Shown in pieces: positions 7,735 to 28,979 of a DNA stretch of 64,000 bases. This DNA comes from Stappia sp. TSB10P1A (lineage in GTDB: Bacteria; Pseudomonadota; Alphaproteobacteria; Rhizobiales; Stappiaceae). The stretch is from the NCBI RefSeq assembly GCF_900185725.1, contig NZ_FYAU01000026.1, forward strand, positions 186,001 to 250,000, given 5' to 3'. Numbering within the stretch: the first letter of the stretch is position 1; every line of letters begins with the position of its first letter. The notes under the pieces are model-generated. The model did no database searches. It saw only the letters and a list, made by a program, of their open reading frames with translations, and had not been told where the DNA came from. The position numbers and the translations under genes are program-made.

Positions 7735-7738
7735 CGGT

Positions 7739-9295
7739 CTACTCCGCCGCTTCGGCCATCGGCCGGGGGGTGAAATCCTGGGGGAAGTGGGTCAGCGCGC
7801 TGAGGACCGGATAGGGTGTGAAGCCGCCGAGCGCGCAGAGCGAGCCGGCCTTCATCGTGTCGCAAAGGTCCTTCAGCAGATCGACCTGCGCCTCCGGGCG
7901 CTCGCCGCCGGCGATCTTGTCCAGCGTCTCGACGCCGCGCACGGCGCCGATCCGGCAGGGCGTGCACTTGCCGCAGCTCTCGATGGCGCAGAACTCCATG
8001 GCGAAGCGCGCCTGCTTCAGCATGTCGACCGTGTCGTCGAAGACGACGATGCCGGCATGGCCGATCAAGCCGTCCTGCGCCGCGAAGGCCTCGTAGTCGA
8101 ACGGCGTGTCGAACAGCGCCGGCGGGAAATAGGCCCCGAGCGGGCCGCCGACCTGCACCGCGCGCACCGGACGCCCGCTCGCCGTGCCGCCGCCGATCTC
8201 CTCGACCAGGGTGCCGAGCGTCACGCCGAAGGCGGTCTCGTAGAGCCCGCCATGGCGGATGTTGCCGGCAAGCTGGATCGGCATTGTACCACGCGAACGG
8301 CCGACGCCGAAATCGCGGTAGAAGGCGGCGCCCCGATCCAGGATCACCGGCACGGAGGCCAGCGACAGCACGTTGTTGACCACCGTCGGCCGGCCGAACA
8401 GGCCCTGCAACGCCGGCAGCGGCGGCTTGGCCCGCACCACGCCGCGCTTGCCCTCCAGGCTGTTGAGCAGCGAGGTCTCCTCGCCGCAGACATAGGCGCC
8501 GGCGCCGACGCGCAGCTCCATGTCGAAGGCGTGGCGCGAGCCCAGCACCGAGGCGCCGAGAATGCCGTCGCGGCGGGCGATCTCGATAGCCTCGCGCATG
8601 ATCGCGATGGCATGGGGATATTCGGAGCGGGTGTAGATATAGCCCTTGGTCGCCCCGGTCGCGATGCCGGCAATCGCCATGCCCTCGATCAGCACGAAGG
8701 GGTCGCCCTCCATGATCATCCGGTCGGCAAAGGTGCCGCTGTCGCCCTCGTCGGCGTTGCAGACGATATATTTGCGGTCGGCCTCAGCCTTCAGCACCGT
8801 GTTCCACTTGATGCCGGTGGGAAAGCCGGCGCCGCCGCGGCCGCGCAAGCCGCTGTCGGTGACCGTGGCGACGATCTCCGCCGGTTCCATGGCGATGGCG
8901 TTGTGCAACCCGCGCAGGCCCTTGTAATGGCGGTAGTCCTCCAGTGACAGCGGATCGGTGACGCCGACGCGGGCGAAGGTCAGCCGGGTCTGGCTCTTGA
9001 GGAAGGGAATCTCCTTGGTCTCGCCGTGGAACAGCGGATGCTCGCCGCCCTCCAGAAAGCCGGCGTCGAACAGGCCGGGCACGTCCTTTTCCGTGACCGG
9101 ACCATAGGCGACGCGGCCATGGGCGGTGCGCACCTCGACCAGCGGCTCCAGCCAGTGCATGCCGCGCGAGCCGTTGCGCACGACCCTCGCCTCAAGCCCT
9201 CGGGCGGAGAGTTCGCCTGCGATCGCCTTGGCGACGCGGTCGGCGCCGACGGCCAGCGCCGCGGAGTCCCTGGGAACGAAGATCACCGGGGTCAT
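7739..9295 (-). CDS. fdsB: NAD-dependent formate dehydrogenase, beta (NADH-binding) subunit
   Basis: A protein of 518 residues that transfers electrons from the alpha subunit to NAD+. A thioredoxin-like N-terminal part is followed by the NuoF-like domain: the FMN/NAD motif GLRGRGGAGFPTGIKW, then CNADEGDSGTFADR and GAGAYVCGEETSLLNS, and the 4Fe-4S motif ESCGKCTPCRIG near the C-terminus. The start at 9295 gives a 4-bp ATGA overlap with fdsG, so the two are translationally coupled. All cofactor residues look intact. Confidence 0.95.
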   Translation of the reverse strand: MTPVIFVPRDSAALAVGADRVAKAIAGELSARGLEARVVRNGSRGMHWLEPLVEVRTAHGRVAYGPVTEKDVPGLFDAGFLEGGEHPLFHGETKEIPFLKSQTRLTFARVGVTDPLSLEDYRHYKGLRGLHNAIAMEPAEIVATVTDSGLRGRGGAGFPTGIKWNTVLKAEADRKYIVCNADEGDSGTFADRMIMEGDPFVLIEGMAIAGIATGATKGYIYTRSEYPHAIAIMREAIEIARRDGILGASVLGSRHAFDMELRVGAGAYVCGEETSLLNSLEGKRGVVRAKPPLPALQGLFGRPTVVNNVLSLASVPVILDRGAAFYRDFGVGRSRGTMPIQLAGNIRHGGLYETAFGVTLGTLVEEIGGGTASGRPVRAVQVGGPLGAYFPPALFDTPFDYEAFAAQDGLIGHAGIVVFDDTVDMLKQARFAMEFCAIESCGKCTPCRIGAVRGVETLDKIAGGERPEAQVDLLKDLCDTMKAGSLCALGGFTPYPVLSALTHFPQDFTPRPMAEAAE

Positions 9296-9771
9296 CGGCC
9301 GGTCTCCTTCACCAGCTCGCGCATCGCCGTCTCGTCCAGCCGTCCGTGCAGCTCGCCGTCGAGCATCGCTGCCGGGGCGCAGGAACACAGGCCGAGGCAA
9401 TAGACCGGCTCCAGCGTGACGCGCCCGTCCGGCGTCGTCTCGTGCCAGTCGATGCCGAGCGCGGCCCGCACCCCGTCGGCAAGCCCGTCGCCGCCCATCG
9501 ACTGGCAGGCCTCGGCCCGGCAGATCTTCAGCACGTGGCGGCCCGCCGGCTCTTTACGGAAATCGTGATAGAAGCTCGCGACGCCGTGCACCTCGGCCCG
9601 GCTCAGATTGAGCGCCTCGGCGATGGTGCGCAACGCCTCGTCCGGCACGCAGCCGAACTCCTTCTGCACCTCGTGCAGGATCGGCAGCAGCGGCCCCTCG
9701 AGCTGCGCAAGGTCCTCCACGACGGCCTGCGTCCGTTCCGCGACCTGTCGTGACGACAATTGCAATGACAT
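9292..9771 (-). CDS. fdsG: NAD-dependent formate dehydrogenase, gamma (NuoE-like) subunit
   Basis: A protein of 159 residues, the first gene of the fds operon. It is a NuoE-like 2Fe-2S protein with the four ligands visible in CRAEACQSMG and VYCLGLCSCAP. The preceding PLLPILHEVQKEFGCVP and EVHGVASFYHDF blocks are typical of the family. A GGGAGA ribosome site lies 6 bases before the ATG. The upstream 282-bp gap holds its promoter region. Confidence 0.95.
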   Translation of the reverse strand: MSLQLSSRQVAERTQAVVEDLAQLEGPLLPILHEVQKEFGCVPDEALRTIAEALNLSRAEVHGVASFYHDFRKEPAGRHVLKICRAEACQSMGGDGLADGVRAALGIDWHETTPDGRVTLEPVYCLGLCSCAPAAMLDGELHGRLDETAMRELVKETGR

Positions 9772-12140: not shown

Positions 12141-14184
12141 TCAGGAGGCGTCGGCCAGCGGCTCCTCGGGCAGCCAGATGGTGAAGACGGTGCCGGCGCC
12201 CGGCGCGCTGCGCACGCGGATCTCGCCGCCCTGGCGGCTGACCAGCGTCTGGGTGATCGACAGGCCGAGCCCCGTCCCCTGCCGGCTCTTGGTCGTGTAG
12301 AACGGGTCGAAGACGCGCGCGAGCACCTCCGCGCTCATGCCGACGCCGGTGTCGGCGACCTCCACGGTCACGCCCGGCACGCCGTCGCGCTGCGTGTCGG
12401 CGGTGGCGAGCGACAGCCGCCCGCCCTTCGGCATCGCGTGGATGGCGTTGACGATCAGGTTGATCAGCACCTGCTGCAGCTCGGTCCGGTTCATCAGGAC
12501 GGTGCGGGAGGCCCGCATCTCGCGCGCCACCTCGATCTCGGTCTGGCGCAGCAGATGACGCACCAGCGGCAGGCAGTCGGAAATCACCTCGTCCGGCGCG
12601 TGCCGGTCGGCATAGCCGGCATATTCGTCGGGCTTGGCGAATTGCAGCAGCTTCATGACGATCTGGTTGATCCGGTGGACCTGCTCGTCGATCAGCCGGA
12701 TCTCGGTGCCGGCGACCTCGGCATGCGCACCGAGCAGCATCCGCAAGACCTCCAGGTTGCCCTGGATGACGGCGATCGGGTTGTTGATCTCATGCGCGAC
12801 GCCGGCGGTGATCTCGCCGATGGCCGCCAGCTTCTCCGACATGATGAGCTGCTTGGTGGTCTCCTCCAACTGGCGGTTCGCCAGCATCAGGTCGCGGGTG
12901 CGCTCTTCCACGCGGGCGTTCAGCTCCTCGTTCCAGGAGCGGAGCTGCCGGTCGCGTTCCTGCACCAGGTCGAGAAGATGGTCGAGATGCTGCGCGACGC
13001 GGGCGATCTCGTCGCTGCCGCCGCCGCCGGGCCGGGTGCGCGCGCCCAGATCGCCGTGCTCGACCCGCCCGATCGTGTCGGTCATCCGCTCCAGCGGCTT
13101 GAACACGCCGCGCGCCCAGCGCAGGAACAGCGGCACGCTGCCGGCGGTGACGACGAGGAAGCCGACCAGCACGGCAACCAGCGTCGCCAGCTTTTCCGCC
13201 TGGAACGGCGCCTCCAGAAAGCCGACATAGAGCATGCCGACCCGCTCTCCCCGGCTGTCGGCGATCGGCTCGTAGGCGGAGATGTACCAGTCGTTGACGA
13301 CGAAGGCGCTGTCGAGCCAGACCTGCCCCTCGCCCAGCACGCGCTCGCGCACCGCCGCCGAGACCCGCGTGCCGAGCGCCCGGCGGTTCTCGAACAGGCG
13401 CACATTGGTGCTGACCCGCACATCATCGAGAAACAGCGTGGCGGTGCCCTGGCTGCCCTCCGGCAGGCTCGCCTCGCGGTAGACGAGATCGTTGATCGTG
13501 TCGATGAAGACGAGGTTCTGGTTGAGCAGGATGCCGCCGACCAGCGCGCCCGGCACCGCCTCCGCCAGACGCGCCGGACTGGCGGAATGCACGACCATGC
13601 CGCGCGTCTCGGTCGTCCGCTCCGTCGGCACCGCGTTGGCTGTGGGGATCAGCTCCAGGCTCGCCCGCGCCGCAAGCTCCGGCGACAGGCCGGCAAGCTC
13701 CTCGCCCTCGAAGATGTCGACGCTGCTGGCCGGCGTGCCGGCCATGGCCCGGTCGATCACCGGCCAGTCGCGGCCGAGCGGCGGGCTGGCTCCAGCCGGA
13801 GAGACGGCCCGGACCCGGCCGTCGCCGCCGACCAGATAGAGAAAGTCGAGGCCCATCTCCGCGCGGCTGCGCTCCAGCAGCGCGGCCAGCGCCGCCCCGT
13901 CGCGCGCGTCGGCGATGTCGCGGAACTCCGCCGACTTGCCGAGCGCGTCGAGCCGCTCGCCGGTGTTGTCGAGGATCCGGGTGAAATACTGGTGGGCGAC
14001 CGTCAGGTCGGCATTGACCTTGGTCTTCAGCAGGGCATCGAACTTCGAGTTCCAGCGCACCATCGCCCAGCCGAGGAACAGCGGCAGCACCACCAGGGTC
14101 GGCAGCAGCGCGATGGCCAGCAGCCGCACCCGGACCGACAGCCGGCCGCGGCGCGCGGGCACCGCCCGCCGCCCGTCCTCAGGC

Positions 14185-14192
<8 letters not shown>
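12141..14192 (-). CDS. sensor histidine kinase with periplasmic Cache domain (DctB/NtrB-like)
   Basis: A protein of 683 residues. A membrane helix (about 18-46) is followed by a large periplasmic Cache-type sensor region (about 47-325), a second helix, a HAMP domain, a coiled coil (ERDRQLRSWNEELNARVEERTR), the phosphoacceptor box GVAHEINNPIAVIQGN (His near residue 460) and a full ATPase domain with DTGVGM and GTGLGLSI motifs. The start at 14192 overlaps the regulator gene by 8 bp. With the downstream transporter it resembles carboxylate-sensing kinase/activator/transporter sets. The ligand is unknown; formate, oxalate or another small carboxylate would fit the neighbours. Confidence 0.88.
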
Positions 14193-15591
<1,399 letters not shown>

Positions 15592-15763
15592 GAACTCCCT
15601 CCCCCGGATTCTTTTGTCGTTCTGTGTTTTTCTCTTCCAAGAGATAGCACAGCCGGCCGGACACGATAATGCCCGCGAGGCGCAGCTTGCAAACACACGA
15701 AGACGCGAGAACCGGAAGACCGGCGCTGTGGGAGGGACGACGCGCGCCGCCGACGCGCGCCTC

Positions 15764-16078
15764 CTAAACGGCGCTGAGGCGCAGGGCGACCGTGTTCAGC
15801 GCCGCGACCTTGGCCTCGGCCGAGCCGCCGGCATAAGCGCTTTCCAGCGTCTCCAGCACCTGGCGGAACCGCTCCAGCTCCTTGCCGGCGATGTCCAGCG
15901 TCAGCGGCTGGTCGTCATAGGCATCGACGAAGGCTTGCGCGGCGCGGGCCACCAGCAGCCAGGCGATGGCCTGTTCGGGCTCGCCGACGATGCGGGCACG
16001 GGCCTCGCGCGCGCAGGCTTCGAAGCTGCGCACGCTCGCGCTGTGCTCGGTCAGACCATTCGCAATCTCGATGAACAT
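15764..16078 (-). CDS. small helical protein of unknown function
   Basis: A protein of 104 residues with no domain I recognise. It is predicted mostly helical, soluble and acidic, without a signal peptide (MFIEIANGLTEHSASVRSF...). A very strong ribosome site (AAAGGAGAGCAGG) precedes the ATG. It begins 49 bp after the pyrC stop on the same strand, so it may be the last gene of the orotate operon. A GC-rich inverted stretch at about 15735-15760 may end transcription. No function is proposed. Confidence 0.55.
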   Translation of the reverse strand: MFIEIANGLTEHSASVRSFEACAREARARIVGEPEQAIAWLLVARAAQAFVDAYDDQPLTLDIAGKELERFRQVLETLESAYAGGSAEAKVAALNTVALRLSAV

Positions 16079-16127
16079 CCTGCTCTCCTTTGGCGAAGAC
16101 CTTTCGCCGGCCTCGTTCGCGGGGACC

Positions 16128-17177
16128 CTACGCCGTGCGGGCCGAGACCGTCCAGTGCACCGGCACCATGGGATCGAAGACGGTAACCGTGCCCTCGCCC
16201 GTCACCACCTTGTCCGGCACCGGGACCGGCGCCGCGCGCTTTTCCAGCACCAGATGGCCCTCGTTCGGCGGCAGCCGGTAGAAGGCCGGCCCGTTCAGCG
16301 AGGCGAAGGCCTCCAGCCTGTCGAGCGCGCCCTCCTCCTCGAAGACATGGGCAAGGCAGGCCATCGCGTTCGGCGCGGTGTAGATGCCGGCGCAGCCGCA
16401 GCCGCATTCCTTCGCCGGATCCACATGCGGCGCGGAATCGGTGCCGAGGAAGAAGCGCGCATCGCCCGAGGTCGCGGCCGCACGCAGCGCCAGCCGGTGT
16501 TCCTCGCGCTTGGCGACGGGCAGGCAGTAGTAATGCGGGCGGATGCCGCCGGCGAAGATCGCATTGCGGTTGATCATCAGGTGATGGACCGTGATCGTCG
16601 CGGCGAGATCCCTCTCCTGCGCGCGGACATAATCGACCCCCTCGCGCGTCGTCACATGCTCCAGCACGACGCGCAGGCCCGGAATGCGCCGGCGCAGCGG
16701 ATCGAGCACCGTTTCCAGGAACACCGCCTCGCGGTCGAAGATGTCGACGGCCGGGTCCGTCACCTCGCCATGGACGCAGAGCGGCAGGCCGATCTCGGCC
16801 ATGCGCTCCAGCACCGCAGTGACCTTGGAGAAATCGCGCACGCCGCCATGCGAATTGGTGGTGGCGCCGGCCGGATAAAGCTTCACCGCGGTGATCAGCC
16901 CGCTGCGGAAGCCGGCCTCGACATCGTCCGCCGCGGTGCCTTCGGTGAGGTAGAGCACCATCAGCGGGGTGAAGTCGTGCCCCTTGGGCAGGGCGGCGAG
17001 AATGCGCTGGCGATAGGCCTCAGCCTGCGCCGTCGTGACCACCGGCGGCACCAGGTTCGGCATGATGATCGCGCGGGCGAAATCGGCCGAGCTGTGCGGC
17101 AGCACGCCGGCGAGCATCGCCCCGTCGCGCAGGTGCAGGTGCCAGTCGTCGGGCCGGCGGATCGTCAGTCGGGTCAT
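16128..17177 (-). CDS. pyrC: dihydroorotase, E. coli PyrC type
   Basis: A protein of 349 residues that aligns by eye along its whole length with the E. coli-type (class II) enzyme. Metal ligands are present: DWHLHLRDG (His13, His15), the carbamylated lysine in [13 protein letters not shown] (Lys99), His136 (CVHGEVT), His174 (LEHVTT) and the catalytic Asp in FLGTDSAPH. It interconverts dihydroorotate and N-carbamoyl-L-aspartate. Its start overlaps the carbamoyl hydrolase gene by ATGA. Next to that enzyme and a transporter, the ring-opening (catabolic) direction is likely. Whether another pyrC serves biosynthesis elsewhere in the genome is unknown. Confidence 0.93.
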
Positions 17178-18457
17178 GGCGCCCCCACGAGATACTGGTG
17201 GACGATATCGGTGGCGGCGAGCAGATCGGGCAGCTCCATCGCCTCCTGCGGATTGTGCGAGCCGTTGCGGTTGCGCACGAAGACCATGCCGGCCGGCACC
17301 CCGACGGACGAGAACACCGCCGCGTCGTGGCCACCGCCGCTCGCCATCACGAACGGCTCCTGGCCGACGGTCTCCATGGCTTTGCAAAGGCCGGCGACGA
17401 GACCGGGATCGCACAGGGCGGGGGCGACGCGCAACTCCTCGTCGAGCTCGAAACGGACTTTCCGGTCGCGCTCGATCTGCGCCATCTCGGTCTTCAGCAA
17501 TTCGCGCATCTCGTCCAGCACCCGCGCGCTCTGGCTGCGGATGTCGAGGCTGAACGACACCTGGTCGGGAATCCGCGTCATCGCGTGCTTTTCCGGATCG
17601 GTGCCGACGATGCCGCTGGTCAGCACCAGGTCGTCGCCCTTGGCGAGAATGGTCGCCCAGCTCTCGTCGAGCCGCACCAGGAGGTCGGCCAGCGCCAGCA
17701 CCGGATCGCGGCGGAAGGCGCGCGGCACGGCGCCCGAATGGCCGGCCTCGCCGAGGCAGCGCAGGGAGCGGTAGCGGATGTTGCCGCGAATGCCCGAGAC
17801 CACCGCCGCCGGCACGTCCTTGCCGATCAGGAGCGGCCCCTGCTCGATATGCACCTCCAGATAGGCGGCGATCCGCGACAGGTCGATCAGCGGCCGGCCG
17901 GCGCGCACGCCCGCCATGTCGATGCCGAGCGCGTCCATATGGGCATCGAGGCTGCGCCCGTCGCCTTTGTGACGGGCGGCGAGATCGGAGGCGGACAGCG
18001 TGCCGGTCAGCGCCTTGGAGCCGATATAGCACGGGCCGAACCAGGCGCTTTCCTCGCCGCGCATGGCGAGCACATGTACCGGGACGGCGAAGCGGCGGCC
18101 CTCGCGCCGCGCCCGCACCAGGCACAGTAGCCCGGCGACGACGCCGGCAAGCCCGTCGAAATTGCCGCCGAAGGGGACGCTGTCGACATGCGAGCCGATC
18201 AGCGTGTAGCGCGCCGCCTCGCGCTCGCCCGGCAGGCAGAAATTGGCGTTGAGCCCGGCGTCGTACCAGACCTCCAGCCCTTCGCGGCGGGCGAAATCCT
18301 CCAGGAAGGACAGCGTCTTGGTCTCGATGTCGGAAAAGGCCGGGCGGCTGACGCCTTCCACATCCGGCGACAGGCGCGCGATCTCGTCGAAGAGGAAACC
18401 GGCAAGGCGCAGCTCCTCGGCGCGGTCATAGGCCCCGGACTTCCTCAGCGCGGTCAC
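17174..18457 (-). CDS. M20-family carbamoyl-amino-acid hydrolase, probable N-carbamoyl-L-aspartate hydrolase
   Basis: A protein of 427 residues of the hydantoinase/carbamoylase (M20) group that includes allantoate amidohydrolase and beta-ureidopropionase. Metal-site motifs are [18 protein letters not shown] (His90, Asp101), the glutamate pair in [10 protein letters not shown] and a C-terminal [14 protein letters not shown] belongs to the dimerisation/substrate region. I use a GTG start at 18457, which overlaps the pyrD stop as GTGA. Placed between pyrD and pyrC, the most economical substrate is N-carbamoyl-L-aspartate (ureidosuccinate), giving aspartate, CO2 and ammonia. The family assignment is firm; the substrate is inferred from context. 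Confidence 0.78.
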
Positions 18458-19398
18458 GGCGCCGCCTCCATGAACACGACGCCCTCCTTCTGCTCGCCGT
18501 CGATCAGCGTGCCGATCAGCTCGCGCACGGACGAGAGCTTCTCGCGCTGCAGATAGCGCTCCAGCTCGGCGATGACGGTGACCATCGCCGTCGGGTTGAT
18601 GAAGGTGGCGGTGCCGACCTGCACGGCGGTGGCACCGGCGATCAGGAACTCGATCACGTCCTCGGCGGTGGAGATGCCGCCGCAGCCGATCACCGGAATG
18701 GTGGTCGACTTGGCGCACTGATAGGCCATGCGCAGGGCGATCGGCTTCAGCGAGGGACCCGACAGGCCGCCCATCAGGTTGCCGAGCTTCGGCCGCCGGG
18801 TGCGGATGTTGATGGCCATGGCCAGCAGCGTGTTGGCGACGACCAGCGCATCGGCGCCGCCCTCCTGCGCCGCGCGCGCCACTTCCGGCGTTTCGCCGGT
18901 GTTCGGCGTCAGCTTGGCCCAGAGCGGCAGATGCGTCGCCGCGCGCAGCTTGCGCATCACGTCATAGGTCGAGGAGGGACGGATGGCGAAGGCCTTGCCG
19001 TCTTCCTCGATGTTCGGGCAGGAGATGTTGACCTCGATGGCGGCAACGCCCTCCACCGTCACTTCCGAGCACAGGCGGGCGAACTCGTCCGCCGTATTGC
19101 CGGAGATCGACACGACCAGCGGCGTCTCATAGGCGCGGTAGAACGGCACCACCTTGTCGAGGAAAGCGCCAACGCCCTTGCTCGGGATGCCGATGGAATT
19201 CAGCATCGACCCGCCGACCTCGCACACGCGCGGCGTCGGATTGCCGTCGCGCAGGCCCCTCGTGATCGTCTTCGTCACATGGGCGCCGAGGCAGTCGAGG
19301 TCGAAGACCTCGGCCAGTTCCTCGGAAAAGGTGCCCGAGGCCGGCATGATCGGGTTCTTGAGCTTGAGGCCGGCAATGTCGACGGACAGGTCTACCAC
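18454..19398 (-). CDS. pyrD: dihydroorotate dehydrogenase, class 1B catalytic subunit
   Basis: A protein of 314 residues with FMN-barrel motifs of class 1B enzymes: NPIMPASGTF near residue 15, NSIGIPSKG, and the catalytic-base cysteine in VNISCPNIEEDG (Cys127; class 2 enzymes have serine). GGLSGPSLKPIAL and GCGGISTAEDVIEF bind phosphate/FMN. Class 1B enzymes work with a PyrK subunit and NAD(H), so they can reduce orotate. The GTG start at 19398 overlaps the pyrK end by a few bases. Proteobacteria normally use a membrane class 2 enzyme for biosynthesis, so a 1B pair in this operon points to a separate role. Confidence 0.88.
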   Translation of the reverse strand: MVDLSVDIAGLKLKNPIMPASGTFSEELAEVFDLDCLGAHVTKTITRGLRDGNPTPRVCEVGGSMLNSIGIPSKGVGAFLDKVVPFYRAYETPLVVSISGNTADEFARLCSEVTVEGVAAIEVNISCPNIEEDGKAFAIRPSSTYDVMRKLRAATHLPLWAKLTPNTGETPEVARAAQEGGADALVVANTLLAMAINIRTRRPKLGNLMGGLSGPSLKPIALRMAYQCAKSTTIPVIGCGGISTAEDVIEFLIAGATAVQVGTATFINPTAMVTVIAELERYLQREKLSSVRELIGTLIDGEQKEGVVFMEAAP

Positions 19399-20243
19399 GG
19401 CATGGCCTCCTGGATGTCGAAGACGGGTCCCTCGCGGCACACGCGCAGTTGCACGGTCTTGTCGCCCTTGCGGAACGGGCGGACGCAGCAGTGGCACATG
19501 CCGAGGCCGCAGGCCATCTGCTGCTCCAGCGCGATCTCGCCGGGAATGCCGTGGCGCTTGCCGATCCGCTGCAACAGGGTCAGCAGGCGGTTGGAGCCGC
19601 AGGTGTAGAAGGCATCGATGCCGGGACCTGCGATCCGCTCCTCGATCAACCCCTCCAGATGCTCAAGCGACGAGGTGCCGTCCGCATCGGTGACCGGCAC
19701 GATCTCGGCCCCGAGATCGCGGAAATAGTCGATCGACATCAGCAGGTCCGGATGGCGGGCGCTGCAGATCGCGGTGAGATGCCGGCCGAGCCGGTTGGCC
19801 TCCAGCGCCAGCGGCGCCAGCGTTGCAAGGCCGACGCCGCGGGCGACCAGCACCAGCCGCTGCCAGTCGTCGTCGATGCGGAAGCCCTGGCCGAGCGGGC
19901 CCATGACGTTGAGCGTATCGCCCGCGCGCAGCTTCGCCAGCGCCCGGGTGCCGGCGCCCGCCACCTTGTAGAGGAAATGCAGCTCGCCGCGCTCGGGATA
20001 GAAGCCGTAGATGCTCATCGGCCGGCGCAGATAGGGCGTCTCGCCGCCAAGCACCGGACACAGCAGGTTGAAGAACTGGCCGGCGCGGCACAGGTCGAGC
20101 ATGTCGCGCGGGGCTGCCAGCACCAGGCGCATGTACTCGCCGTTGACCGGGTCGTTGGCGAGGACGCCAAGGTCCCGCTCGAAGACGACGGGTTGCGCCC
20201 GCCCGCCAATGGCGGGCGCGGCTCTTGTCAGCACGCTGGTCAT
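19392..20243 (-). CDS. pyrK: dihydroorotate dehydrogenase electron-transfer subunit
   Basis: A protein of 283 residues with a ferredoxin-reductase-like FAD domain (RRPMSIYGFYPE; VMGPLGQGF), a nucleotide-binding part with an atypical LVARGVGLATLAPL, and a C-terminal 2Fe-2S site with ligands Cys245, Cys250, Cys253 and Cys269 (CGLGMCHCC...VC). PyrK links NAD(H) to the class 1B PyrD. Its start overlaps the dctM stop by ATGA, so import and reduction are translationally coupled. Confidence 0.88.
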   Translation of the reverse strand: MTSVLTRAAPAIGGRAQPVVFERDLGVLANDPVNGEYMRLVLAAPRDMLDLCRAGQFFNLLCPVLGGETPYLRRPMSIYGFYPERGELHFLYKVAGAGTRALAKLRAGDTLNVMGPLGQGFRIDDDWQRLVLVARGVGLATLAPLALEANRLGRHLTAICSARHPDLLMSIDYFRDLGAEIVPVTDADGTSSLEHLEGLIEERIAGPGIDAFYTCGSNRLLTLLQRIGKRHGIPGEIALEQQMACGLGMCHCCVRPFRKGDKTVQLRVCREGPVFDIQEAMPW

Positions 20244-21526
20244 CCGAACACCAGATTGGGCAGGAAGGTGGAGATCGACGGGATATAGGTGATGATCCCG
20301 AGCGCCACGAGATTGGCGATCACGAAGGGCCAGATGCCGGCAATGATCGTCATCACCGGCTTGCCGAGCGTCGAGGACGCCACGAAGAGATCGAGCCCGA
20401 AGGGTGGCGTGATCATGCCGGCGGAGATGTTCAGCGTGACGATCATGCCGAAATGCACCGGGTCGATGCCCATCGCCATCGCCACCGGATAGAGCGGCGG
20501 CACCAGGATCAGCAGCGCCGAATTCGGATCGATGAACATGCCGGCGATCAGGAAGACGACGTTGACCACCAAGAGGAAGGCGATCGGGCCGGCATCGACC
20601 GCTGCCAGGAACTGCAGGATCTGGCTGGGGATCTGCGCCAGCGTGATGAAGTAGGAGAGCAGGCCGCCGAGCGCCAGCAGGATGAAGATGATCGCGGTCG
20701 AGACCGCCGCCCGTTCGGTGACCTTGAACAGCTTCTTCAAGGTCAGTTCGCGGAACACGACCATCTCGACGAAGATGGCGTAGACGACGCTGACGGCGGC
20801 GGCCTCGGTCGGGGTGAAGACGCCCGAATAGATGCCGCCGAGAATGATCGCCGGCATGCCGAGCGCCCAGCCGGCATGGCCAACGGCGCGCAGCCGCTCG
20901 CCCCAGGAGGTGCGCTCGCCGGCGGACACGCCGGCGCGCCGCGCCTCGATGGCGACCATGATGGCGAAGACGAGGCCGAGCACCAGGCCGACCGCCATGC
21001 CGGCGACGAACAGCCGCGCGACCGAGGTGCCGGTCATCCAGCCATAGATGATGAAGGTGATCGACGGCGGGATCAGCAGCGCCGTCTCGGCGCTGGAGGC
21101 GATCAGGCCGAGCGAGAACTTGTCGCTGAAGCCGGCCTTGCGCATTTCCGGATAGACCAGCCGGCCCATCGCCGCGACCGTCGCCGGCGCCGAGCCGGAG
21201 ACCGAGCCGAAGGCCATCGAGCCGCCGACGATGGTATAGCCGATGCCGCCCTTGCGATGGCCGAGCAGCGACTGCACGAGGCCGGTGAGGCGGCGGGCGA
21301 TCTGGCCCTCGCCCATCAGCTCGGCCGCCAGGATGAAGAAGGGAATGGCGAGCAGCGTCGAATGGTTGATGCCGCCGACCAGCTTCTGCACCACGACCGG
21401 ATCCGGCAGGGTGCCGTAGAAGATCTGCTTGACCAGCAGCGCCGGCACGCCGAGCACGAGGAACATCTCGAAGCCCGCGACCAGCAGCAGAACGGCCAGC
21501 GCGACGATGAGGTAGAGAAGAATCAT
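20240..21526 (-). CDS. dctM: TRAP transporter large membrane subunit (DctM family)
   Basis: A protein of 428 residues with about twelve hydrophobic segments and DctM signatures: IPFFILAAELMGEGQIARRL, GGSMAFGSVSGSAPATVAAMG, LIPPSITFIIYGWMTGTSV and a C-terminal MITPPFGLDLFV. It is the ion-coupled transport subunit of a tripartite uptake system. It overlaps dctQ upstream and pyrK downstream by 4 bp each. The direct coupling to pyrK is the best evidence for orotate or a related pyrimidine acid as the substrate. Confidence 0.93.
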   Translation of the reverse strand: MILLYLIVALAVLLLVAGFEMFLVLGVPALLVKQIFYGTLPDPVVVQKLVGGINHSTLLAIPFFILAAELMGEGQIARRLTGLVQSLLGHRKGGIGYTIVGGSMAFGSVSGSAPATVAAMGRLVYPEMRKAGFSDKFSLGLIASSAETALLIPPSITFIIYGWMTGTSVARLFVAGMAVGLVLGLVFAIMVAIEARRAGVSAGERTSWGERLRAVGHAGWALGMPAIILGGIYSGVFTPTEAAAVSVVYAIFVEMVVFRELTLKKLFKVTERAAVSTAIIFILLALGGLLSYFITLAQIPSQILQFLAAVDAGPIAFLLVVNVVFLIAGMFIDPNSALLILVPPLYPVAMAMGIDPVHFGMIVTLNISAGMITPPFGLDLFVASSTLGKPVMTIIAGIWPFVIANLVALGIITYIPSISTFLPNLVFG

Positions 21527-22026
21527 GCCTCGTCGGCCTCCCGTGCCGGCATGCGGTCGATCAGCCCGAGGAAGCTCAGCAGGTAGCGCAGGGCAAGCAG
21601 CCCGAAGCCGACCAGGGGCGCGACATAGATCCAGCCCATCTCGAGGCCCAGCGTCGGGCTCTTCTGACCCGAGCCGAAGACGAACAGCGTCATCTTCCAG
21701 GCGAGCCAGACGAGATAGAGCGAAAACAGGAAGCCGGTGGCATCGATGATGCGCTGGACCGGCAGGCGGGTAGCGGCGGCGATGCGCGCGCGCCAGGTGT
21801 CGACGGCGACATGGCGGCCGATCTCCAGCGCGTAGCCGATGGCGAGGAACACCAGGTAGAGGTTCATCAGCCGCACCGCTTCCTCGATCCAGCTCAGGCT
21901 GGAGGCAAGCGGGCTGCCCGAGGCGCGCACCACCACGTTGACGAAGTAGAGAGCCACCATCGTCAGGAAAATCAGGACCAGTGCGGACCGTTCGACGGTC
22001 CGCAGGATCGAGAGGGCACTGCGCAT
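21523..22026 (-). CDS. dctQ: TRAP transporter small membrane subunit (DctQ family)
   Basis: A protein of 167 residues with four hydrophobic helices and the DctQ pattern LSWIEEAVRLMNLYLVFLAIGYALEIGRHVAVD near residue 43-75. It bridges the binding protein and DctM. The start lies just after a 344-bp repeat-filled gap that separates it from dctP. Its stop overlaps the dctM start as ATGA. Confidence 0.92.
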   Translation of the reverse strand: MRSALSILRTVERSALVLIFLTMVALYFVNVVVRASGSPLASSLSWIEEAVRLMNLYLVFLAIGYALEIGRHVAVDTWRARIAAATRLPVQRIIDATGFLFSLYLVWLAWKMTLFVFGSGQKSPTLGLEMGWIYVAPLVGFGLLALRYLLSFLGLIDRMPAREADEA

Positions 22027-22128
22027 TGACCTGCTCCAGTCGTCCGCCGCAAGGGCTGTCCTGCCCGCCGCTCACGGCGGACCCGGAATGAAATCGGGCG
22101 CGGATCCGGCCGCGCCACCCACCACACA

Positions 22129-22351
22129 AGGCGGCGGGCAGTTCTTAAGCGGTGCGGGCGCAGGTCCGGGCCGCGCCCACCCGCCGCAAGGGCGGCGGGC
22201 AGTAAAGCGGTGCGGGCGCAGGTCCCGCCGCGCCCCCCCGCCGCAAGGGCGGCGGGCAGTAAAGCGGTGCGGGCGCGGTCCGGGCCGCGCCCACCCGCCG
22301 CAAGGGCGGCGGGCAGTAAAGCGGTGCGGGCGCGGTCCGGGCCGCGCCCGC
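22129..22351. repeat. four 57-58 bp tandem repeats, each with two hairpins, between dctP and dctQ
   Basis: The phrase AGCGGTGCGGG recurs at 22148, 22206, 22263 and 22320 (periods 58, 57, 57). Each unit carries two strong stems: CCCGCCGC-AAGG-GCGGCGGG and GGGCGCGG-N6-CCGCGCCC. A decayed extra copy is visible near 22097-22117. The copies are almost identical, so the array is recent. It fills most of the gap inside the TRAP operon. It could stabilise the dctP mRNA or limit read-through into dctQM. Confidence 0.92.
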
Positions 22352-22370
22352 GGGCCGGAACAGCCGGCGG

Positions 22371-23384
22371 TTACTTGGTAACCGCGGCGTATTCCTGCTC
22401 GTAGAGGTTCACCAGCAGCATGCCTTCCTCGCCGGCGCCCTGGATGTAGGCGTTGCGGGCGGCCGGATACATGGTCTCGCGGAACGCGGCCTTCTCCTCG
22501 GCGGAGAGCTCGCGCACCTCGACGCCGGCACCCTTGATCTCCTCCAGCGAGGCGGCGACCGACGCCTGCTTGTGGGCGATCAGGTCCGGGATCACCTCGG
22601 CGAAGGCCTCGGTGATGACCGTGCGATACTCTTCCGGCAGGCTGGCCCAGAAGGTCGGGTTGAACAGGACCACGTCCTCCATCGCGCCGTGATTGGAGAG
22701 CACTAGGTGCTTCTGCACCTCGTAGAACTTCATGGCGCGGATGGTGTCGAGCGGGTTCTCCTGGGCATCGACGACGCCGGTCTGCAGCGAGGTGTAGAGC
22801 TCGCCGAAGGGCAGCGCGATGGCCGTGGCGCCGACCGCCTTGAACTGCTCGATCAGGATCGCCGAATCCATGACGCGGAACTTCTGGCCGGAGAAGTCCT
22901 CCATGCTGGCGAGCGGCTTGTTGGACGTGAAGTTCTTCTTGCCGTTCGGCCACAGCATCAGGCACTCGACGCCGCGGCTCTCGAAGGACTCGCAAAGCGC
23001 CTTGCCGAAGGTGCCCGAGCGCAGCTCCTGCGCCTTGGCATCGTCATCGGGCAGCAGGAAGGGAATGTCGAGGATCGACACGACCGGATTGAAGCCGCCG
23101 AGGAAGGCGGCCGGGGCGACGGTCGCCTCCAGCGAGCCGAGCTGCACGCCCTCGGTCATCTCGCGCTGCTGGCCGAGCTGGCCCTGCGGGAAGATCTGGA
23201 ACTCGACGGCGCCGTTGGTGCGCTCGGCGACCAGGGCCGCGACCTTTTCCAGATGCACGTGGCGGGACTGCTGGGTCGATTCCAGATGGCCGATCTTGGC
23301 GACGAAATCCGCCGCGAAAGCGCCGGACGAGAAGGCGACGGCGAGGACGGCCGTTGCGGCCAGCTTGCTGATTGAATGTGACAT
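22371..23384 (-). CDS. dctP: TRAP transporter periplasmic solute-binding protein (DctP family)
   Basis: A protein of 337 residues with a Sec signal peptide (cleavage after about residue 24, GAFA-ADF). DctP motifs include IFPQGQLGQQREMTEGVQLG, the substrate-carboxylate arginine region GQKFRVMDSAIL and the GVVDAQENPLDTI block. Family members bind organic acids. As the first gene of the operon, it determines the imported substrate; orotate, which has a carboxylate, fits. It diverges from the XRE regulator. Confidence 0.92.
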   Translation of the reverse strand: MSHSISKLAATAVLAVAFSSGAFAADFVAKIGHLESTQQSRHVHLEKVAALVAERTNGAVEFQIFPQGQLGQQREMTEGVQLGSLEATVAPAAFLGGFNPVVSILDIPFLLPDDDAKAQELRSGTFGKALCESFESRGVECLMLWPNGKKNFTSNKPLASMEDFSGQKFRVMDSAILIEQFKAVGATAIALPFGELYTSLQTGVVDAQENPLDTIRAMKFYEVQKHLVLSNHGAMEDVVLFNPTFWASLPEEYRTVITEAFAEVIPDLIAHKQASVAASLEEIKGAGVEVRELSAEEKAAFRETMYPAARNAYIQGAGEEGMLLVNLYEQEYAAVTK

Positions 23385-23490
23385 AGGGCTCCACCTCTAA
23401 GGCTAACAGGCACCGGATACGCTTTTGCTTCTTGGCGCGACAGCGCGGAAGGAAGGACGCAGCGTATGGGGCGATCCGGAGCCTGTCAAT

Positions 23491-23528
23491 ATTTCATCTC
23501 AAAAATGAGACAATTGGACATTTCATCC
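23491..23528. promoter_or_regulatory. A/T-rich palindrome and repeated ATTTCATC between dctP and the regulator
   Basis: TCTCAAAAATGAGA (23497-23510) is an inverted repeat, and ATTTCATC occurs at 23491 and 23520. This A/T-rich island in very GC-rich DNA lies about 110 bp upstream of dctP and about 130 bp upstream of the regulator start. It is a likely promoter and operator for the divergent pair. Confidence 0.45.
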
Positions 23529-23641
23529 AAGAACTGATTATCTTGATCGGAAATGAGCCGCCACACGAGATCGCCGGCCGCGCTGCCGGCCCTCGCAGGC
23601 CATGGGAACCCGTGGTGACCCCGATACCGACCTCGATACCG

Positions 23642-24562
23642 ATGCAGGACGACGACGCCATCCGGTTCAGCGATATCGGCGCAAGGCTGCGGGCCCATCG
23701 CCTGGGCAAGGGCCTGACGCCGGAGGCGCTGGCGGAAAAGCTCGGCATTTCCCGTGCCGCGCTGTACCGGGCCGAGAAGGGCGAGATCCGCAAGATCGAG
23801 ATGCTGACCTCGATCGCCGCCGAACTCGGCGTGTCGCTGCCGAGCCTGCTCGGCGTCGGGGTGGAATATGTCAGCACCTCCATCGGCTTCTTCGAGCGCA
23901 TGCGGCAACTGGAGGACGAGTGCCAGCAGATCATCGGCCTGTTCAGCCCGATGTCCTACTTGCTGACCTCCGACGACTATGACGCGATCCTGAGGGAAGT
24001 GCTGCTGGAATCGATCCCCGACGGCACCGATCCGGACGGCGAGGCGGCCGATGCGGTGGAGCGGCTGCTGGAGATCCTGCGCGCCCGCAAGGAGGCCTTC
24101 CGCCTGCGCCGGCCGCTGATCGTCAGCCTGATCTCCTCGGCCGATCTCGAACGCTTCCTGCTGCACGGGCTGATCGGCCGCCACGACCTGCCGCCGCAAA
24201 CGGTCGACCGCCGCCGGCTGATGGCGCGGCGCGAGGCGGAGTATCTCCTGTCGATGCTGCGCGACCAGCCGATCGGCATCCAGATCGGCATCGTCCGCGG
24301 CCCGGTGCCGGCGACGAGCTTCCAGATCTTCCGCCAGACCAGCCGCTCGGTGCTGGCGATCAGCCCGTTCCGGCTCGGCGAACAGCCGAATGTCCGCCTC
24401 GGCGTCGCCATGATCACCTCGGCGGCGGAGGCGATGACCCTGCACGAGACCATCGCCGAACGGCTGTGGGGCGACGCCCTCAAGGGCGCCGAGGCGATCG
24501 CCCATCTGGACGCGACGATCGACAAATACGCCATCGCCGCCCCGCCGACGACGGACGGTTGA
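23642..24562 (+). CDS. XRE-family transcriptional regulator of the orotate/TRAP operon
   Basis: A protein of 306 residues from the ATG at 23642. An in-frame GTG at 23612 is possible, and the reading frame stays open further upstream through the putative operator. Residues about 8-65 form an XRE helix-turn-helix (GARLRAHRLGKGLTPEALAEKLGISRAALYRAEKG). The remaining 240 residues are a soluble domain I cannot name. It includes FFERMRQLEDECQQIIGLFSP, and its C-terminal half may bind a ligand. It is divergent from dctP, so it probably controls the operon and itself. Confidence 0.75.
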   Translation: MQDDDAIRFSDIGARLRAHRLGKGLTPEALAEKLGISRAALYRAEKGEIRKIEMLTSIAAELGVSLPSLLGVGVEYVSTSIGFFERMRQLEDECQQIIGLFSPMSYLLTSDDYDAILREVLLESIPDGTDPDGEAADAVERLLEILRARKEAFRLRRPLIVSLISSADLERFLLHGLIGRHDLPPQTVDRRRLMARREAEYLLSMLRDQPIGIQIGIVRGPVPATSFQIFRQTSRSVLAISPFRLGEQPNVRLGVAMITSAAEAMTLHETIAERLWGDALKGAEAIAHLDATIDKYAIAAPPTTDG

Positions 24563-27263: not shown

Positions 27264-28979
27264 ATGGACAGCCCTGAACGGCCGACCGCCGCCCCACCGG
27301 AACGGGGCGCGTCGGAACGGGACGCGTCGGAAGGGCGCGCGTCGGAACGGGACGCGCGGGCACGGATCATCGCCCCGGTGCGGGCGGAGCTGCGCCGGGC
27401 CGGACTGCTGGCCGTGCTCGCCGGCATGATCTGGCCGCTGCAGGCCGCCGCCATCGCCTGGGCGATCGCCGGCTGGGCGACCGGCACGGATGTGCTTGCC
27501 CGCAGCCTCGCGGCCGCGCTCGCCATCGGCATCGGCGGTCTGGTCCGCGCCGGGCTCGAGCACCGGAGCGGCCGCCTGCTGTTCGAGGCCGCCGACCGGA
27601 CCATCGCCCGCGAGCGCCAGGCGCTGCTGCTGCGCGAGGCCCGCGCCCGCGCGCCCGAAGGCTCCGCCGCCGTCGCGGCGCTGGCCTTGCAGAAGCTACC
27701 GCTGCTGCAGCCCTGGATCACGCGCTACCATGTGGCGATGACGCGGGTCGCGGTGCTGCCGGCGCTGCTGCTGCTGCTGACCGTCTCGATCTCCTGGGCG
27801 ATCGGTCTGGTGCTGCTGGTCGCCGGGCCGCTGATCCCCGTGTTCATGGCGCTGGTCGGCATGGCCGCCGAAGCCGCCTCCCGCCGGCAACTGGCCGAGA
27901 TCGGCACCATGAACGACATGCTGATGGACCGGCTGTCGGCCCTGCTCGACATCCGCCTGCTCGGCGCCGCCGACCGCGCGGCGCAGGATTTTTCGGCCAG
28001 AGCCGAGGCCCTGCGCGAGCGGACGATGGCGGTGCTGCGCATCGCCTTCCTGTCCTCCACCGTGATGGAACTGTTCTCGGCGATCGGCGTCGCCATGGTC
28101 GCGGTCTTCGTCGGCTTCAGCCTGCTCGGCGAGATCGGCTTCGGCACCTGGGGCGCGCCGCTAACCCTGGGCGAGGGCGTGTTCCTGCTGCTGATCGCCC
28201 CGGAGTTCTTCCAGCCGCTGCGGGACCTGGCCGCCGCCTGGCACGACCGCGCCGCCGGCCAGGCCGTGGTCGCCGAGCTGGAAGCGTTCGACCGCGCCGA
28301 ACGCGTCACCGTGGTCGGCCAGGGCGAGCCCGCCGCACCGCTTGCCGGCCCGATGTCGCTCGAACTCTCCGGCGCGGTCGCCGCCCTGCCCGCCCGCGCC
28401 CTGCCGCTGCCCGCCTTCGCCGTCGCCGGCAGCGCGCTGATCGCCTTGAGCGGGCCGAGCGGCGCCGGCAAGTCGACGACGCTCGCCGCCATCGCCGGAC
28501 TGGTGCCGCTCGCCGCCGGGCGCATCACCGTCTGCGGCCGGCCGCTCGGCCCCTCGACCGCCGATGCCTGGCGCGCCCGCCTCGCCTATATGGCGCAGGC
28601 GCCGCATTTTCCCGACCAGATGCTCGCCGACTATCTCGATCCGCTCGGCGAGGGCGCCGACCCCTGGCACGCGCTCGACCTCGCTCGCGCCCGGCAGGTG
28701 GTCGAACACCTGCCGGCGGGCTTGCGGACCCGGCTCGGCGAGACCGGCGGCGGCGTCTCCGGCGGCGAGGCGCGCCGGCTGATGCTCGCCCGTGCCATCC
28801 TCACCGGCGGCGACCTCCTGCTCGCCGACGAGCCGACCGCCGACCTGGACGGCGAGACGGCGGCGATGATCATCGCGGCGCTGCGACAGCTCAAGGCGGG
28901 CGGACGCACGGTGATCGTCGCGACGCACGACCCGGCGCTGATCGCGGTGGCCGACCGCACCGTGGAGATCACCCCATGA
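27264..28979 (+). CDS. cydD: heterodimeric ABC exporter CydDC, subunit CydD
   Basis: A protein of 571 residues: six-helix membrane domain (about 40-335) then ATPase domain with Walker A GPSGAGKST, signature VSGGEARRL and Walker B LLLADEPTADLD. CydDC exports glutathione/cysteine, or handles heme and thiols, and is needed to assemble cytochrome bd. The first 35 residues are a low-complexity tail built from ASERDA-like repeats (GASERDASEGRASERDARAR), encoded by 18-24 bp DNA repeats. The stop overlaps cydC as ATGA. Confidence 0.9.
   Translation: MDSPERPTAAPPERGASERDASEGRASERDARARIIAPVRAELRRAGLLAVLAGMIWPLQAAAIAWAIAGWATGTDVLARSLAAALAIGIGGLVRAGLEHRSGRLLFEAADRTIARERQALLLREARARAPEGSAAVAALALQKLPLLQPWITRYHVAMTRVAVLPALLLLLTVSISWAIGLVLLVAGPLIPVFMALVGMAAEAASRRQLAEIGTMNDMLMDRLSALLDIRLLGAADRAAQDFSARAEALRERTMAVLRIAFLSSTVMELFSAIGVAMVAVFVGFSLLGEIGFGTWGAPLTLGEGVFLLLIAPEFFQPLRDLAAAWHDRAAGQAVVAELEAFDRAERVTVVGQGEPAAPLAGPMSLELSGAVAALPARALPLPAFAVAGSALIALSGPSGAGKSTTLAAIAGLVPLAAGRITVCGRPLGPSTADAWRARLAYMAQAPHFPDQMLADYLDPLGEGADPWHALDLARARQVVEHLPAGLRTRLGETGGGVSGGEARRLMLARAILTGGDLLLADEPTADLDGETAAMIIAALRQLKAGGRTVIVATHDPALIAVADRTVEITP

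Follow-up and report, generated by a model that had tools for sequence, protein, structure and literature searches.

The 64,000-nucleotide stretch of Stappia sp. TSB10P1A analysed here (contig NZ_FYAU01000026.1, positions 186,001 to 250,000), called the window below, carries a group of genes that is best explained as a self-regulated operon for the acquisition and the reductive degradation of orotate, a reading to which a probability of about 0.7 is assigned. In the proposed pathway, the TRAP transporter DctPQM would import orotate, PyrD together with a PyrK-like subunit would reduce it to L-dihydroorotate, and PyrC would open the ring of this compound to give N-carbamoyl-L-aspartate. The latter would be hydrolysed by an M20 amidase to L-aspartate, CO2 and ammonia, thereby yielding carbon and nitrogen. 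A divergent XRE-type regulator would act on the palindrome TCTCA-N4-TGAGA next to the -35 box of dctP and would detect the substrate by means of its C-terminal domain. PyrC would be able to run in both directions, and the imported orotate might also be salvaged by PyrE, which is encoded elsewhere in this genome and within the cluster in most of the relatives examined. The initial annotation of this DNA had proposed a single operon leading from uptake to aspartate. The match of DctP to an orotate-bound protein and the constancy of the M20 gene speak for this route, but salvage by PyrE and the shared use of PyrC were left out of it, and an operator and a small conserved protein were missed. That interpretation was largely right in kind and too simple.

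The genes are read on the minus strand in the order dctP-dctQ-dctM-pyrK-pyrD-M20-pyrC, as established from the sequence and from matches to Pfam and NCBIfam models. They encode a TRAP solute-binding protein (dctP, 23384-22371; PF03480, 287.4 bits), the small and large permeases (dctQ, 22026-21523, PF04290; dctM, 21526-20240, PF06808), a PyrK-like FAD/[2Fe-2S] electron-transfer subunit (20243-19392; PF10418), a class 1B dihydroorotate dehydrogenase (pyrD, 19398-18454, with a GTG start at 19398; NF005574, 355.8 bits for a cut-off of 269), an M20 amidase of the hydantoinase/carbamoylase family (18457-17174; TIGR01879, 250.6 bits for a cut-off of 204) and a dimeric dihydroorotase of the E. coli type (pyrC, 17177-16128; TIGR00856, 417.5 bits for a cut-off of 292.95). 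A spacing of 344 bp separates dctP from dctQ; 4 bp are shared at each of the dctQ/dctM, dctM/pyrK, pyrD/M20 and M20/pyrC junctions and 7 bp at pyrK/pyrD. The seven genes on one strand, the short overlaps at every junction after dctQ and the divergent XRE gene, recognized here by the Pfam models HTH_31 and HTH_3, are thus as the initial annotation had given them. A small open reading frame (sORF, 16078-15764, minus strand), which begins 49 bp beyond the end of pyrC, lay within the range of that annotation and was not named there.

Relatives of the cluster were gathered as 79 loci, those ranking highest among the 328 places of a DctP scan of genome contigs; because these loci were picked by DctP similarity, the linkage to TRAP genes is built into the set. 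Genes were called in them with a codon-score script, which missed some (in L062, L063 and L170), and the cluster genes were counted by tblastn. The pyrK and pyrD genes stand behind dctP in 64 of the 79 loci, 59 of which reach far enough beyond pyrK to be counted. Of these 59, 58 contain M20, 53 sORF, 47 pyrE and 27 pyrC, and 7 show the arrangement of the window (pyrC and sORF, no pyrE). Four of the cluster pyrE genes were tested with NF001729 and scored 285 to 381 bits (cut-off 245). Since the relatives show the same order, the arrangement is not due to chance. The M20 gene is kept in these clusters though it has no place in pyrimidine synthesis, and a class 2 pyrD was found in all 21 genomes searched, that of Stappia sp. 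TSB10P1A included. Judging from this conservation, the steadiest enzymes would be those that synthesis does not supply, a dehydrogenase able to run in reverse and a carbamoyl hydrolase. The steadiness of these two parts, the class 1B dehydrogenase and M20, is the main argument for breakdown. The presence of pyrC and pyrE varies, since their function can be filled by housekeeping copies.

An order-wide sample of 297 genomes, free of selection on DctP and including the present genome and three others of its genus, was also searched. The PyrK-like protein (E <1e-70) was found in 19 genomes and sORF (E <1e-9) in 17, all of them among the 19. Two genomes (G046 and G141) have the PyrK-like protein and no sORF match, two others (G054 and G272) show weak sORF matches of 27-28 bits and no PyrK-like protein, and G245 (82.6 bits with PyrK) was excluded as a likely de novo operon. 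DctP (E <1e-90) was detected in 15 genomes, 14 of which have the PyrK-like protein. The transporter itself can be swapped: an MFS gene replaces the TRAP genes ahead of pyrK-pyrD-M20-pyrE-sORF in G226 and G313 (loci L166 and L167), and an NMT1-type ABC operon with a phosphorylase-superfamily gene stands opposite pyrK-pyrD-M20-sORF in G168 and G258 (loci L164 and L165), Pfam having been run on one member of each pair. The locus behind the excluded genome (L172:7693-11108) reads pyrK-pyrD-pyrC-pyrE, with a PyrK 33% identical; M20, sORF and the operator were not found in the stretch read. This likely de novo class 1B operon has the pyrK, pyrD and pyrC families in common with the window. NMT1-type ABC operons with a phosphorylase-superfamily gene lie near orotate clusters in L164 (2926-6980), L165 (1558-5557), L024, L025, L039, L040, L042, L066 and L071, and a branch for the uptake of a nucleoside, such as orotidine or uridine, is possible.

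The substrate of the transporter is fairly secure, because of its match to a protein with orotic acid bound. The nearest solved relative of DctP is 4NN3, matched over its full length with 450.9 bits, the next chain reaching 170.6 bits. According to the excerpts of PMC11668362, 4NN3 is a TRAP solute-binding protein of Maridesulfovibrio salexigens that was bound to this compound, and a Lys takes the place of the Arg seen in the other structures of the comparison. By our reading of the alignment, the DctP of the window resembles 4NN3 in this Lys as well, and its R170 and N210 match by position the carboxylate-binding Arg and the supporting Asn of TRAP proteins described in the same excerpts. In the 82 DctP rows aligned, some of which are further DctP paralogues from the loci, the Arg is kept in 82 and the Asn in 72. 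A TRAP transporter for orotate had been considered new by the initial annotation; this did not hold, given 4NN3 and the excerpt of a review (PMC5812351) in which orotic acid is named as one of the TRAP ligands newly found by a 2015 screen. The excerpt of PMC10041152 gives TRAP, pyrE and dihydroorotase genes of Ruegeria and has nothing on orotate uptake.

The enzymes were compared residue by residue, in rows made of gene calls above a length floor (54 for PyrK, 60 for PyrD, 60 for M20 and the 82 for DctP, window included). PyrD matches the class 1B structures 1EP1-1EP3, PyrDK of Lactococcus lactis, over nearly its full length with 242.6 bits. Its residues K42, N66, N123, C126, N128 and N188, presumably the orotate and FMN ligands and the catalytic cysteine, are each kept in 60/60 rows. 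The PyrK-like subunit shares with the L. lactis enzyme the cysteines of the [2Fe-2S] cluster (C245, C253 and C269 in 54/54 rows, C250 in 53/54) and the FAD motif RRPxS, present as RRPMS in 54/54 rows. It departs from that enzyme in its NAD motif, discussed below, in being clustered with M20 and in the presence of a class 2 enzyme in the same genome. One further pair of PyrK-like and PyrD genes (L169:7468-9302) is surrounded by genes for a Rieske oxygenase, an asparaginase and a monooxygenase of the phenol-hydroxylase type, and this branch of PyrDK may thus have a different role there.

The M20 protein resembles the hydantoinase/carbamoylase amidases 3N5F and AllC (1Z2L) in its family match and in its metal-ligand motifs: H91, D102, E137, H204 and H402, presumably the metal ligands, are found in 60/60 rows. 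The window-type proteins differ from both by two invariant arginines, R225 and R229 (58/58 rows, two rows below 40% identity having been removed), the first of which aligns, as we read the alignment, with A in 3N5F and V in AllC. Such arginines would be in keeping with a substrate that carries two carboxylates, which is offered as a suggestion only. On the basis of gene context and of these arginines, the protein is proposed as a candidate N-carbamoyl-L-aspartate amidohydrolase (ureidosuccinase), an enzyme for which a name search of the open-licence literature returned no paper.

The XRE protein is proposed to control the operon through the candidate operator TCTCA-N4-TGAGA (23497..23510, strand not assigned), a specific site that the initial annotation had missed and that is new in this analysis. 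Its recurrence in relatives is the evidence for it: upstream of dctP the palindrome is exact in 36 of 60 regions and present with at most one mismatch in 53, against a mean of 0.5 in shuffled sets of 60 regions, and a TTGAC starts 6-9 bp past the site in 50 of these 53. In the present genome, 5.1 Mb in size, the exact palindrome occurs only once, 7 bp upstream of the TTGACA box of a putative dctP promoter read from the sequence (23461..23489, minus strand; TTGACA at 23489-23484, 17 bp, TACGCT at 23466-23461). Across the 79 loci, uncorrected for kinship, the site with at most one mismatch accompanies 60 of the 63 that have an adjacent XRE gene and none of the 16 that do not (7/790 in shuffled sequences). 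It precedes the pyrK operon as well as the ABC operon in L164 and L165, and, from positions read by eye, the related ABC operon in L024, L025, L039, L042, L066 and L071; the start of that operon falls outside the locus in L040. The regulator gene (23642..24562, plus strand) most likely starts at the ATG at 23642, giving 306 residues, rather than within a long frame opened by TTG. The AlphaFold2 model of the protein (pLDDT 90.9) has a C-terminal part, beyond the helix-turn-helix, that may be PLD-like: it weakly resembles PLD-fold proteins and archaeal TrmBL2 (Foldseek E 7e-5 to 6e-4, TMq 0.31-0.41), and the PLD catalytic motif HxK(x4)D was not found in the protein. TrmB proteins are ligand sensors, and it is on this basis that sensing by the C-terminal domain is suggested.

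The remaining pyrimidine genes of the genome define what the operon may contribute to synthesis. Three proteins belong to the DHO_dh family: a class 2 PyrD on contig C40, the class 1B enzyme of the window and PreA on C53. Uracil degradation was considered as a function of the operon and set aside in view of this separate PreA. The pyrE gene lies on C27, where none of the remaining pyr genes of the set adjoins it, and pyrB lies on C46, followed by a dihydroorotase homologue (PRK09059; L015). The latter is probably an inactive PyrC', since its HxH metal motif reads GVTV; proteins of the PyrC' type are presumably inactive. A second dihydroorotase-like protein (PRK09060, on C40) reads QVH and may be active. 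A second protein resembling aspartate carbamoyltransferase was seen on C63 (L021), slightly below the family cut-offs (213 vs 236.95 bits). The operon does not look like a de novo pyrimidine operon, as it contains M20 and no pyrB. Its pyrC encodes the only protein of the genome above the cut-off for dimeric PyrC and, because the copy linked to pyrB looks dead, PyrC of the operon probably serves uridine monophosphate (UMP) synthesis as well. A purely catabolic pyrC was rejected on account of this sole dimeric PyrC, and a tree of 36 PyrC rows leaves the operon copies unseparated. The search for separate biosynthetic genes that had been advised by the initial annotation therefore gave a mixed answer: a class 2 pyrD was found, but no second dimeric PyrC, and the dihydroorotase next to pyrB lacks HxH. 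The fear that the operon might hold the only pyrC and pyrD of the genome is clearly unfounded for pyrD and may be justified for an active pyrC. Similarly, the argument against biosynthesis drawn from the lack of pyrB agrees with the location of pyrB, the class 2 pyrD and pyrE elsewhere, but does not extend to PyrC, which probably takes part in synthesis.

The small protein encoded by sORF is a conserved, all-helical polypeptide of 104 residues, identified from its reading frame, its relatives and its predicted structure. No Pfam or NCBIfam model matched it at E 0.001. It is predicted to form a compact helical bundle (pLDDT 90.5), a fold for which no PDB match below E 0.17 was obtained. Its gene also trails the module in all four genomes with other transporters. 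A role in coupling or controlling the shared enzymes is a guess. Weak relatives of sORF were also seen at L173:8429-8731 and L174:8119-8352, in two genomes where no PyrK-like protein was found, and the family may be wider.

Several observations weigh against orotate degradation as the function of the operon. The NAD motif GGGIG of 1EP1 is replaced by ARGVG in the PyrK-like subunit, RGVG being present in 54/54 rows, and the cut-offs of the PyrK equivalogs are missed (120.3 vs 270 and 116 vs 219 bits). On these grounds the protein is named PyrK-like here and, because of the altered motif, NADH is not assured as the electron donor: of the class 1B PyrD/PyrK using NADH put forward initially, the class of PyrD stands and the donor is uncertain. 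RGVG also occurs in the further PyrK-like proteins of L164, L168 and L169, out of five, and a motif search found neither RGVG nor GGGIG in those of L166 and L172. Enzymes of the PreA type presumably have much of the PyrD site in common. The M20 protein passes the cut-off of the broad family TIGR01879, but it stays below those of all the more specific models listed. As for the operator, an XRE gene (45-46%) accompanies the module in both MFS loci, L166 and L167, and its promoter side contains no such site. In L168, where the stretch read begins at a contig end, an exact site is present and an XRE gene is not. Moreover, 12 of 13 genomes with TRAP genes and no adjacent pyrKD gave no PyrK-like protein (E 1e-15), the 13 corresponding to 12 of the 15 loci lacking pyrKD plus G256, while the other three loci (L043, L053 and L097) are short contigs. 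The transporter can therefore also serve other ends, perhaps salvage. Finally, pyrC is found in just 27/59 clusters and pyrE, a gene of salvage or synthesis, in 47/59; since the cluster pyrE is commoner than pyrC, salvage to UMP belongs to the picture.

The frequency of pyrE could even suggest an operon devoted to orotate salvage and pyrimidine synthesis, in which the TRAP transporter feeds PyrE, PyrC and PyrDK are synthetic, the latter offering an NAD-linked option besides class 2 PyrD, and M20 is peripheral. The status of the operon pyrC as sole dimeric PyrC gene fits this explanation, as does the lack of any strong PyrE match other than the cluster gene in G005, G006 and G007. It is nevertheless judged unlikely: an M20 enzyme acting as proposed, and present in 58/59 clusters, would waste a synthetic intermediate, class 2 pyrD is available in 21/21 genomes, and the cluster of the window has neither pyrB nor pyrE. 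Slightly less probable still is a system in which the same enzymes handle mainly an orotate-like compound, for example dihydroorotate, orotidine, 5-carboxymethylhydantoin or some other pyrimidine with a carboxyl group. The breadth of the M20 family would allow it, and the same operator stands before the ABC operon with its phosphorylase-superfamily gene in the eight loci named above, but orotic acid is the ligand bound in 4NN3, to which DctP is nearest among solved structures, and the PyrD site fits orotate or dihydroorotate. The absence of a close DctP (E 1e-90) from the four genomes G168, G226, G258 and G313, which have the PyrK-like protein and sORF, could also point to an overflow or detoxification route by which PyrDK, PyrC and M20 remove internally accumulated orotate, uptake being secondary. 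This is very improbable, as another transporter adjoins the module in each of these genomes and the TRAP genes lead the operon in the window.

Orotate acquisition and degradation is thus retained as the best explanation, and it can be carried one step further, into a fuller picture that we hold to be slightly less probable than its opposite. The cluster might represent an undescribed alphaproteobacterial orotate regulon, in which an XRE protein with a PLD-like sensor acting on TCTCA-N4-TGAGA would switch on a swappable uptake system (TRAP, ABC or MFS), a PyrDK run in reverse with a changed donor site, an N-carbamoyl-L-aspartate amidohydrolase gene and a small helical protein dedicated to the system, by which the shared PyrC and PyrE may be coupled or gated between the degradation of orotate and the synthesis of UMP.

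Reductive degradation of orotate is known from Clostridium (Zymobacterium) oroticum, with the same sequence of orotate, dihydroorotate, N-carbamoyl-aspartate and aspartate as proposed here. The likeness lies in the pathway; the present system belongs to an alphaproteobacterium, takes up its substrate through a TRAP transporter, has a regulator and an operator of its own, and includes an M20 amidase and sORF. This breakdown is old biochemistry to which few or no genes are known to have been assigned, and no work on the genetics of orotate degradation in C. oroticum was found among the matches listed (titles and abstract starts). No description of the operon or of its operator was found in the open-licence literature at the same level of titles and abstract starts, which leaves room for an earlier description.

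Other features of the window were recorded. The gap between dctP and dctQ contains a GC-rich tandem repeat of 57 bp in 4.4 copies with strong stem-loops (22095..22349, strand not assigned; z -5.1), which may reduce the expression of the permease genes relative to that of the binding protein. Immediately downstream of the operon and on the same strand, 12141-15696 encodes a sCache histidine kinase and a sigma-54 response regulator. Further away, molybdopterin oxidoreductase and NuoF-like proteins (4864-9400) probably constitute an NAD-linked formate dehydrogenase, and a 15-bp tandem repeat of about 4 copies (27298-27356) lies upstream of the gene of an amino-acid ABC binding protein.

What is described here unites a pathway and a transporter of known types in an alphaproteobacterial cluster that is conserved and has an operator and a small protein of its own. 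If this reading is right, it suggests a physiological role for a known orotate TRAP protein, and the operon supplies a gene candidate for N-carbamoyl-L-aspartate amidohydrolase. The operator would be sufficiently rare for the regulon to be traced in further genomes, and PyrC would be a case of one synthetic enzyme seemingly shared between the building and the breaking of the same compound.

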